Assembly: GCA_001858525.1 (NCBI GenBank)
Contig: LAPX01000007.1
Span: 186,001 to 250,000, forward strand
DNA: 64,000 nt
Direction: 5' to 3'
Source of the DNA: Vampirovibrio chlorellavorus
GTDB lineage: Bacteria > Cyanobacteriota > Vampirovibrionia > Vampirovibrionales > Vampirovibrionaceae
The notes beneath the pieces are model-generated. The model did no database searches. It was not told where the DNA came from and worked only from the letters and a program-made list of their open reading frames with translations. Position 1 is the first letter of the stretch, and the number at the start of each line of letters is the position of its first letter. Below, in pieces: positions 2,142-5,234 of the stretch. A program made the translations under genes and the position numbers.

Positions 2142-3194
2142 ATGACCACCCCTTCCACCCATCACGCCATTTTTTCCACCCCATTGCAAATCGGTGCCGT
2201 CACAGTTAATAGCCGGGTTATACTGGCCCCCATGGCCGGAGTCACTGATGTGGTCTTTCGGGGATTGGTGCGCCGTTGGGCCCCAGACTCTCTCATTTGC
2301 ACGGAAATGATCAGCTCCAACGGACTGGTGTATTCCAAGCGCTTTGACGCCCCCATCCTAGACAAAACCGTCATCGATCAACCCATTGCTTACCAGTTGG
2401 CCGCCCACCGGGAGGAAGTGCTGTTGGAAGCGGCCCGCACCATCATTCGGGACAAGCAACCGGACACGCTGGACATTAACATGGGTTGTCCGGTTAAAAA
2501 GATTACCGGCAATTTTGAGGGCTGCGCCCTGATGAAAGAACCGGATTTGGCCTATAAGCTCATCTCTTCCCTGGTGAAAACGCTGGAACAGGATGGCACC
2601 CCCACCCCGGTTACCGTCAAATTCCGGCTGGGCTGGGATAGCGAAACCATGAACTATCTGGAATTCGGTAAAATGTGTCAGGATGCCGGGGCCAGCATGG
2701 TCACCCTGCATGCCCGCACCCGCGCCCAGGGCTACAAGCCCGGCTGCAAGTGGGAAGCCTTCGGCGAACTGAAAGAAGCGCTGTCCATTCCGGTGATTGC
2801 CAATGGCGATATTGTGTCCATGGAAGACGCCCTGCACGTGATGACCACCTACGGGGTGGACGGGGTGATGATTGGACGGGGCACCCAAGGCCAGCCCTGG
2901 CTGATTGGGGCCATTGATGAAGCCCTGAAAACGGGGAAACCGGTGGCGCCGCCCAATATCAAGCTGCGTTTGGAAAGCGCCTATGAACACGCCCGTTTAT
3001 TAGCGGATTACCGGGGCGAAGTGACTGGGGTGAAGGAAATGCGCCGCCACCTGACCGATTATGTAAAAGGCTTCCCCGGGGCCAGCGCCTACCGCAGCCG
3101 TATTACCAGTGTCAGCACACTCGAGGAAGTCCACACCATTTTGGGCGAAATCGCCGAATATGCGGCTTCTCAGGAATTGGCCGTCGCTGTTTAA
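2142..3194 (+). CDS. dusB: tRNA-dihydrouridine synthase B
   Basis: A 350-residue protein matching the NifR3/DusB family. APMAGVTDVVFR lies near residue 30, DINMGCPVKKIT near residue 110 carries the active-site cysteine, and the TIM-barrel ends with NGDI and MIGRGTQGQPW, which contact FMN phosphate. A C-terminal helical tRNA-binding region follows, with REMR-type sequence KEMRRHLTDYVKGFPGA. The enzyme uses FMN and NADPH to reduce specific uridines in the tRNA D-loop. Length is usual for DusB. The gene stands alone between the divergent phosphatase and the His-leader region. Confidence 0.92.
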   Translation: MTTPSTHHAIFSTPLQIGAVTVNSRVILAPMAGVTDVVFRGLVRRWAPDSLICTEMISSNGLVYSKRFDAPILDKTVIDQPIAYQLAAHREEVLLEAARTIIRDKQPDTLDINMGCPVKKITGNFEGCALMKEPDLAYKLISSLVKTLEQDGTPTPVTVKFRLGWDSETMNYLEFGKMCQDAGASMVTLHARTRAQGYKPGCKWEAFGELKEALSIPVIANGDIVSMEDALHVMTTYGVDGVMIGRGTQGQPWLIGAIDEALKTGKPVAPPNIKLRLESAYEHARLLADYRGEVTGVKEMRRHLTDYVKGFPGASAYRSRITSVSTLEEVHTILGEIAEYAASQELAVAV

Positions 3195-3289
3195 GCGAAA
3201 ACCCCTTAAAAGCCAACGCCGGTCCTCCAACCCCCTCCCAAAATAGTGCTTGGCAATTTGAAGCCGTTTGTGGTTTTCTTATACGCATC

Positions 3290-3376
3290 ATGTTGAATCT
3301 CGTCTTACATCATCAGCACGTCCACCACCATCATCATCGGATGATGGCTTACGGCTTGCTGGCTGGTAACGATTAG
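3290..3376 (+). CDS. Candidate histidine-rich leader peptide
   Basis: A 28-codon reading frame whose residues 7-17 read HHQHVHHHHHR: eight His codons in ten. It then reads MMAYGLLAGND and stops at 3374. The pattern is that of a hisL-type leader peptide, in which the ribosome senses charged tRNA-His. It lies 134 bases before an unknown membrane protein gene, not before a his operon. The peptide-coding RNA carries GGCTTACGG (3346-3354), the exact complement of CCGTAAGCC (3438-3446) in the 5' arm of the following hairpin. Weak points: no good Shine-Dalgarno lies before the ATG, and no strong promoter is visible. It could be chance, but codon run and RNA pairing fit together. Confidence 0.5.
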   Translation: MLNLVLHHQHVHHHHHRMMAYGLLAGND

Positions 3377-3466
3377 AAAACTGCAAGATTTCAACACTGC
3401 AAACAGATTTTCAATCCAGACCCAAATTCGACAAGAACCGTAAGCCCCCGTGTTTACGGTTCTTTG
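3346..3466 (+). promoter_or_regulatory. Candidate transcription attenuator with competing hairpins
   Basis: The terminator-like hairpin pairs AAGAACCGTAA (3433-3443) with TTACGGTTCTT (3454-3464), 11 perfect base pairs that extend inward by G-U and C-G, followed by only a short U stretch. The competing pairing is GGCTTACGG at 3346-3354, inside the leader ORF, with CCGTAAGCC at 3438-3446; the two structures share 3438-3445 and cannot coexist. A ribosome stalled at the early His codons would leave 3346-3354 free for antitermination, while one reaching the stop at 3374 would cover it and allow the terminator. This is the logic of amino-acid attenuation; function here is inferred. The weak U tract is the main doubt. 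Confidence 0.5.
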
Positions 3467-3509
3467 CGTATGGGCACCAAATTTTATTCCAGAGGTTTTA
3501 ACCACTACC

Positions 3510-5234
3510 ATGCAACCCCTGTCACAATCTCCACAACGTCAAAAACCCCAGACCCGCTTCGGTTCCGCTGGCGGTGGCAGCGGCTTGGGTCTAGTCACCG
3601 GGACGATGGAAGCCGTGTCTCGCTGTTTTGAAAATAACCGGGGCGCGGAAATGCTGGTGGAAGACGTGATGGGGTTTGGACTATTGCGAACGGGCATGGA
3701 CCTACGTCGCAATAAAATGTACGGGGATGATTCCTTAAACGTGCCCGCCGCCGCAGAACGTTTCGGCCGAGAGATTCTTTCTATCCTGACTGATTGTGTG
3801 CTGGGGGGCGTGGTGGCCTGGGGGGTTGGTAAGGCCTTTTTTGACCGGAAAAACCAGGCCTTCAGCAAGGAGTTTATTCAATACCCTTCACTGGAATTGT
3901 TTCAGGATATTGCCAACCCCGAAAAATTCCCGGGCGTAACTTGCCCCAATGAAGCCCAGACCCAATTCAAGCAAGCCTTGGCTGAGCGTTTAGTCCTGGA
4001 AAAAGGCAAAGCCCTGCCCCCTGAAGCCGAACAGGCCTTTAACGCCGTGTGGAATAAGAAACCGACCCGGGAAGTGATTAATGATAAGGCCAAAGCGCTG
4101 GTAAACGCCATTAAAACGGATGCCAAAGACTTTACAGTGGATCTCAGGGTGGACGGGACAGGCAAAAAGGCCTCCTTTGCCGCCAACGAGTTACTGGATG
4201 ACGTCAGCTGTTTCTCCCGTGCCATGGCCAAGGCCTGGGAAAATAAGGGCGCGCAAAGCACCACTTGGCAAACCATGGCCAAAAACGCCATTGAGCGAAC
4301 CATTACCGCCAAAAACTGGACGATTCCCATCGGCTTGGCCGCCGGAATGACCGCAACCTTCATCAGCCCCTTTGTCCTCAACGGGCTGACTAAAAAAGTA
4401 TTCGGCATTGACTACTTCCCCGGAGAAACCAGCCTGCGCAAGAATCAGCCAAACCTTGCACTCAGCAATCCACCGAAGAAGAAAGGCTTTTGGGAAAAGC
4501 ACTTCCCCTACATCACAGAAGCACTGAAAAACGGCAATCCGCTGCCTTTGGGATTGGCCCTAACCCCTTTGTTGGCTGCCGTGGGAGCCGTTGACACCTA
4601 CAACCGTCGCTTAATCAACCCCATTAAAGGCCTGAGAGAGGGCACCCTGAAAAAGCTGTTTGACTTCAGCAAGAAAGCCCCCTTTACCTCTCAACAGCAA
4701 ATGGCCGCCATGTTCGCCTTACTCATCACCTCCCGCCTGCTGTCCTCCCGCAGCGATAACGAGTACAAAGAGCGCATTCTGGATTCCGCCCTGGGCTGGA
4801 TGTTCTGGATTGTAGGCACCCCGCTGCTGAAACAGGGGATTTCCAAAGCACTGAGCAAGGAGCTTTTGACGAAAGAGGGTGCGGTTAAAAGTCGGGAAGC
4901 CGTAGCTGCCTTCTCTAAAAATGCTTTGGCCAAAAACGTGTGGGTGGGCATTGGCAGCACGCTGGGCACCATTGGCATTTTGGGTCTGTTAGCCCCTTTG
5001 GCCGGTATCAAGCTGACCCAGTGGAACGAAAAACGCAAGCAGGAAAAAGCGGCCTTGGGCCAACCCATCCAGCCACAGTCCATGCCCTCTCTGGCATCAG
5101 TGGCCCCCAAAGCCTTTGCACCACCGGTGGGTAGCAATCCTTTTGCCCCCGGAATCACACGCCCGATGACTCCGCCTCAGCAGGCCAACACGTTTCCGGC
5201 CTATTCCCCCAATTACGCTTGGCCGCAGCGTTAA
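3510..5234 (+). CDS. Uncharacterised multi-pass membrane protein
   Basis: I do not recognise this 574-residue protein. Hydrophobic stretches likely to span the membrane occur near residues 90-108 (ILTDCVLGGVVAWGVG), 285-308 (IPIGLAAGMTATFISPFV), 360-378, 420-450 and 505-525 (GIGSTLGTIGILGLLAPLAG). The first 30 residues are polar and Gly-rich, and the last 50 are rich in Pro and Gln. The frame is open from 3450, but a GTG there would lie inside the attenuator hairpin with no ribosome site; ATG 3510 has AGAGG about 14 bases upstream and is preferred. The gene is single, ends at a bidirectional terminator, and seems to be controlled by the His-rich leader region before it. Confidence 0.75.
   Translation: MQPLSQSPQRQKPQTRFGSAGGGSGLGLVTGTMEAVSRCFENNRGAEMLVEDVMGFGLLRTGMDLRRNKMYGDDSLNVPAAAERFGREILSILTDCVLGGVVAWGVGKAFFDRKNQAFSKEFIQYPSLELFQDIANPEKFPGVTCPNEAQTQFKQALAERLVLEKGKALPPEAEQAFNAVWNKKPTREVINDKAKALVNAIKTDAKDFTVDLRVDGTGKKASFAANELLDDVSCFSRAMAKAWENKGAQSTTWQTMAKNAIERTITAKNWTIPIGLAAGMTATFISPFVLNGLTKKVFGIDYFPGETSLRKNQPNLALSNPPKKKGFWEKHFPYITEALKNGNPLPLGLALTPLLAAVGAVDTYNRRLINPIKGLREGTLKKLFDFSKKAPFTSQQQMAAMFALLITSRLLSSRSDNEYKERILDSALGWMFWIVGTPLLKQGISKALSKELLTKEGAVKSREAVAAFSKNALAKNVWVGIGSTLGTIGILGLLAPLAGIKLTQWNEKRKQEKAALGQPIQPQSMPSLASVAPKAFAPPVGSNPFAPGITRPMTPPQQANTFPAYSPNYAWPQR

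Follow-up and report, generated by a model that had tools for sequence, protein, structure and literature searches.

The locus and its question

Vampirovibrio-like bacteria are non-photosynthetic relatives of Cyanobacteria. In the 64,000-nucleotide stretch of Vampirovibrio chlorellavorus DNA analyzed here (the window), a short reading frame crowded with histidine codons follows a dusB-like gene (2142-3194) and precedes a 574-codon gene for a membrane protein, which raises the question of whether this frame controls the gene and to what signal it might respond. On the basis of sequence comparison and folding, we consider it very likely that the segment is a ribosome-mediated transcription attenuator, responsive to histidine, which controls the 574-aa membrane-protein gene. 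Its features are collected in Table 1.

Table 1. Features of the putative attenuator and the gene downstream (window coordinates)
Feature	Position	Strand	Basis or remark
Promoter-like block: TTGGCAATTT (3250-3259) and -10-like TATACG (3280-3285)	3250-3289	+	Alignment by eye
Leader peptide ORF	3290-3376	+	His-leader counterparts in G001, G003, G004, G007, G009, G010, G012, G014
Predicted leader-internal hairpin, CCAUCAUC (3328-3335) with GAUGAUGG (3340-3347)	3328-3347	+	Minimum-energy fold
Putative antiterminator 5' strand, GGCTTACGG	3346-3354	+	Exact complement of 3438-3446; covaries among orthologues
Predicted intrinsic terminator hairpin, 13 bp, loop of 6, short U tract	3433-3464	+	Folding; antiterminator partner at 3438-3446
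Candidate Shine-Dalgarno (GAGG) for the gene downstream	3492-3495	+	Conserved in L002, L004, L005
Putatively regulated gene, encoding 574 aa with predicted membrane segments	3510-5234	+	Single-gene unit

The leader frame and the sequence before it

The leader frame comprises 28 codons and encodes the peptide MLNLVLHHQHVHHHHHRMMAYGLLAGND*. As the preliminary description had pointed out, His occupies eight of ten successive codons (3308-3337, + strand), and these are the candidate regulatory codons. No other site in the window, on either strand or in any frame, has at least seven His codons per ten, and the chance of such a run, estimated from base composition, is about 5e-11 per 10-codon stretch. 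Five (CAY)5 sites were found in the genome, and only the one at 3290 belongs to a short ATG-started leader.

The promoter-like block is kept in L001, L002, L004, L005 and partly in L021. Its -10-like element, which reads TATAAT in the relative L004, stands 4-5 bases before the leader ATG, so the leader mRNA is possibly leaderless, and a leaderless mRNA may serve for translation of the leader. In the window genome, neither a canonical sigma-70 promoter before the leader nor a Shine-Dalgarno sequence before its ATG was detected; the earlier doubt about the ribosome site therefore holds. The upstream part of the block, a conserved TTGGCAAYTT (window 3250-3259; L002, L004, L005, L021) about 30-40 bases before the leader ATG, has no canonical -35 element and is possibly the site of an alternative sigma factor or an activator.

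Terminator, antiterminator and folding with a ribosome

The hairpin in front of the downstream gene, previously described as 11 bp long, is present and slightly longer, with 13 pairs including one G-U. The exact complementarity claimed between the leader and this hairpin was recovered as well: GGCTTACGG in the leader pairs with CCGTAAGCC (3438-3446) over nine bases without a mismatch. The leader region folds more stably than its shuffled versions (z -4.35; none of 200 shuffles as good). The U tract is poor in the window genome (TTCTTTGCG), as had been suspected, and the relatives have better ones.

We also folded the RNA up to the terminator 5' arm while masking the footprint of a ribosome placed at varied codons. 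In the window, 12.7 bases were expected to be paired in the antiterminator when the ribosome occupied the His codons, compared with 0.5 in its absence, so that the proposed effect of stalling is predicted by the folding; placing the ribosome just past the His run gave 0.0, and placing it at the stop codon gave 3.9. The group means of the other leader groups described below act alike, with the Cys leaders the best and the Ser leaders the least clean at the stop codon; several Ser leaders, L008 and L021 retain the antiterminator at that position. Because the footprint is schematic and the folding is at equilibrium, both of which are simplifications, these values indicate that such a switch is possible and do not by themselves demonstrate its function in the cell. 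A codon-rich leader, a terminator before the gene, an antiterminator behind the codons and a stall-dependent switch, by which an attenuator is recognized, were thus all found by computation.

In the mechanism that we infer, the attenuator would sense charged tRNA-His. When histidine is scarce, the leading ribosome would stall on the His run and leave 3346-3354 free to pair with the terminator 5' arm, and this antiterminator would block the terminator and let the 574-aa gene be transcribed. With ample histidine, the ribosome would run through, the leader would refold or be masked, and the terminator would form and release the polymerase. The antiterminator would be lost past the run partly by ribosomes passing over the segment and partly by refolding within the leader, where the internal hairpin is predicted to rival the antiterminator while the His codons carry no ribosome. 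It had been proposed that a ribosome completing the peptide covers 3346-3354. This proposal holds only in part, since a ribosome at the stop codon has its 5' edge near 3357 and would mask the segment incompletely.

Conservation and covariation within the order

Relatives of the 574-aa protein were identified in 13 of the 18 examined genomes of the order, and a His-run leader with a terminator precedes the orthologue in nine (G000, G001, G003, G004, G007, G009, G010, G012 and G014); in G002 and G016 a contig end cuts the downstream gene. The leader is conserved down to 31-36% identity of the downstream protein, and the terminator hairpin is at the matching place in all nine genomes. The His run itself is constant among the orthologues, and the choice of CAT or CAC, the exact positions and the flanking residues vary, as in MTRFHQTAHHHHHHHPMMAIDVLL (G012) and MRNQFQHHHHHHHLGP... 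(G007).

To examine covariation, the stretch behind the codon run was paired with its own terminator 5' arm or with that of another genome. For the nine His leaders, own pairing was -19.0 kcal/mol versus -14.9 kcal/mol for swapped pairing, and 4 of 5,000 permutations were as good. The paired strands include GGCUUACGG/CCGUAAGCC (G000), GAUGACGG/CUGUCAUC (G010), CAUCGAUG/CGUCGAUG (G012), GGCUAAUG/CGUUAGCC (G009) and GUGCGGA/UCCGCAU (G007). At the level of sequence, pairing that is kept between such widely differing strands is compensatory change, which is what an attenuation model demands. The upstream regions of orthologues, where the preliminary description had expected its idea to fail if wrong, carry the His run, the terminator and the covarying antiterminator alike, and the comparison supports these three elements as parts of one putative device.

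Association with the loss of histidine synthesis

Genes for hisG, hisB (IGPD) and hisD (histidinol dehydrogenase) are absent from all nine genomes with the leader. Seven others (G005, G006, G008, G011, G013, G015 and G017) possess all three, and none of them has the leader. The leader and the loss of His genes therefore match perfectly in the 16 scorable genomes of the order, although shared ancestry is in play and the pattern may represent one or two independent changes. G016 (56% complete) has hisG alone of the three and lacks the start of the downstream gene. G005 and G008 contain leaderless relatives of the gene, which are nested in the leader-bearing group on the protein tree. In published work, V. 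chlorellavorus makes 15 amino acids, Ser and His not among them (PMC4451040), and histidine synthesis is missing in gut Melainabacteria (PMC3787301). The comparison thus supports a link with histidine auxotrophy, and this link supports the general idea, put forward earlier, of a histidine-responsive transporter or starvation-response protein; the protein would help an auxotrophic cell to get histidine or to survive without it.

The membrane protein

The 574-aa gene forms a unit of its own, as the rplT-like gene after it is encoded on the opposite strand. No credible match to its product was found in Pfam, NCBIfam, PHROGs, PADLOC or the PDB sequences. The window protein and a relative with a Ser leader were modelled with AlphaFold (mean pLDDT 76 and 84, respectively); both models are mostly helical, and searching them against the PDB with Foldseek gave no fold match (best E 0.27 and 0.18, TM about 0.1). 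Neither by sequence nor by fold, then, could the protein be assigned to a known amino-acid transporter family. On a simple scale, it has 2-4 strongly hydrophobic segments, and the models suggest more membrane helices than these. A short F-x-G type motif (such as RFGSAGG, KFSGRG, NFNGLLD or PAFTGPVD) follows a Pro/Gln/Asn-rich stretch at the N-terminus of most family members (3510-3570 in the window), and is perhaps a sorting or secretion signal.

Serine, cysteine and further histidine leaders in the wider class

A profile search detected the protein family in 116 of 194 genomes of the class. In the gut family f6, which is taken to be Gastranaerophilales, a Ser- or Cys-codon version of the attenuator would control related genes. 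One gut clade has Ser-run leaders with a terminator at 15 sites (e.g., MKKLYALTTSSSSSSSSNKF... and MRNLYVANVNSSSSSSSSSSGC...). These encode a GGGACUU-type antiterminator, of which a TCG Ser codon forms part, and all 15 have a TTGACA-TATACT-type promoter 6-31 bases upstream of the ATG. Another gut clade has Cys-run leaders (e.g., MRYINLNKLICCCCKSCC) with switches of the UAAGAACUUA/AAGUUCUUA type. In the swap test, no permutation out of 5,000 was as good as own pairing for the Ser group and one was for the Cys group. Some genomes contain several family members with leaders of their own, such as a Ser-leader and a Cys-leader paralogue in G189 (L155, L171) and two Cys-leader paralogues (L167, L168) in G099. 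No such leader was found upstream of the tandem paralogue pair in gut genomes.

The Cys-leader model also matched one site before a different operon, in which a PF01053 enzyme of Cys/Met metabolism comes first and a PALP-family enzyme, by its sequence like cysteine synthase, comes second. Here, a Cys-run leader (MIYKFFENLKCCCCKFLSKRTYL) with a terminator stands directly before the operon (L235 1501-3152; G170:C1:21725-21876, + strand). A Cys leader before a cystathionine/cysteine-synthase operon is an internal positive control.

A weak match of the Ser model pointed to P0003, a protein of 471 aa whose gene has a His leader. Its similarity to the family extends over about 110 residues of the family's C-terminal half (hhalign E 1.4e-4, probability 52); the weak PADLOC match of P0003 to RTas337 (7.8e-4, 53 residues) was judged to be chance. 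His-rich leaders were found at 29 of the 30 P0003 loci examined, and the 23 of these 29 with a usable terminator and antiterminator were modelled; none of 5,000 permutations was as good as own pairing in this second His group. Upstream of P0003 orthologues (L238-L267), the CAATTCT...AGAATTGGAG pairing is conserved and could mask the gene's Shine-Dalgarno sequence, and GAATTGA near the leader stop could vie for CAATTC, so a second, translational layer of control is possible at these loci. Among the weak R1 matches (E 2e-4 to 8e-4), that in G180 (L157) is a Cys leader, and that in G079 (L158) is a His leader upstream of another gene; the others look like chance. Unrelated to the leader, L056 (G001:C1) contains a frame of 346 codons that is very rich in His over one stretch (EHHHHDHGHHHHHHHP) and that resembles, by eye, a cation-diffusion-facilitator metal transporter.

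When leader amino acids were placed on the family tree, six changes were required, compared with 30.7 for shuffled labels. The leader amino acid tracks the protein clades, with His, Ser and Cys on three clades. This distribution, together with a Cys version that also serves cysteine-metabolism genes, suggests that the function of the family is linked to the amino acid of the leader, and acquisition of that amino acid seems the likeliest role of the 574-aa protein.

Comparison with known attenuators

The nearest known counterpart is the hisL attenuator of enterobacterial his operons (Rfam RF00514). hisL controls biosynthesis genes, whereas the present leader would control a membrane-protein gene in histidine auxotrophs, belongs to another lineage and has a simpler 1-2-3-4 arrangement; no his biosynthesis genes follow it as in hisL, and hisG, IGPD and hisD are absent from the genome. 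At the gathering score, neither the window segment nor five related loci matched Rfam; even a permissive search gave no match to the Rfam his leader and no other relevant one. The physical principle is in common with the trp, leu, ilv, thr, phe, his and cys attenuators of Proteobacteria and Actinobacteria. Unlike known attenuators, those described here occur in His, Ser or Cys versions on one protein family, and we know of no serine-run attenuators.

The Cys leaders resemble the polycysteine leaderless short ORFs of mycobacteria (Canestrari et al. 2020, cited in PMC9031893; predicted earlier in PMC1262725) in having a short, possibly leaderless Cys-run leader and cysteine-responsive control. 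The mycobacterial leaders are without a conserved terminator hairpin (PMC1262725), whereas here a predicted intrinsic terminator is combined with a covarying antiterminator. Among the papers searched, none linked Gastranaerophilales with leader peptides, although such work may exist elsewhere. The mechanism is known; the lineage, the regulated protein family, the range of amino acids and the exchange of the sensed amino acid are new.

Alternative interpretations

The segment might be nothing more than the terminator of the dusB-like gene upstream, preceded by a frame that is His-rich by chance. The hairpin is indeed about 240 bases past the dusB stop codon and its U tract is short; the leader and terminator are nonetheless kept together, with covariation between them, in nine genomes, and the promoter-like block directly before the leader is kept in several of them, which makes this explanation extremely improbable. 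Equally improbable is that the His run acts as a peptide, for example as a metal-binding sensor, and not through charging of tRNA-His. Metals are bound by His- and Cys-rich peptides. Close counterparts with the same antiterminator design use Ser runs, which do not bind metals in that way, and the covarying pairing between leader and terminator fits a switch set by ribosome position; we rejected metal sensing because serine versions exist.

A real attenuator may also serve a different kind of protein. The 574-aa product could act in starvation generally or in the life style of the cell (attachment, predation or envelope change), with the amino acid serving only to signal an exhausted prey or host, and we regard this as a serious contender that falls somewhat short of an even chance. 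The lack of a matching transporter family or fold, the few strongly hydrophobic segments for a secondary transporter, and paralogues without a leader peptide in the same genomes are in its favor. A general starvation cue would not be expected to involve three amino acids that track three clades, however, and the His leaders accompany loss of His synthesis, while a Cys leader of like design serves cysteine-metabolism genes. A more specific proposal, which we advance tentatively and rate as somewhat less likely than not, is that the family represents new amino-acid-specific acquisition proteins (uptake or scavenging) of Vampirovibrionia, in which the codon run of the leader names the substrate (His, Ser or Cys) and, as biosynthesis was lost, the cognate gene came or remained under the control of a codon-run attenuator.

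Implications

These leaders offer a first clue to the function of a membrane-protein family that matches nothing known and occurs in many genomes of a poorly cultured class. Since the leaders predict the amino acid to which each member responds, the function of the family becomes directly testable. Attenuation, best known from biosynthesis operons, appears to be re-used here in amino-acid auxotrophs, with the sensed amino acid swapped between related genes and the design of the RNA switch unchanged. For the predatory and gut-dwelling members of the class, it would be a simple sensor of what the host or prey supplies.
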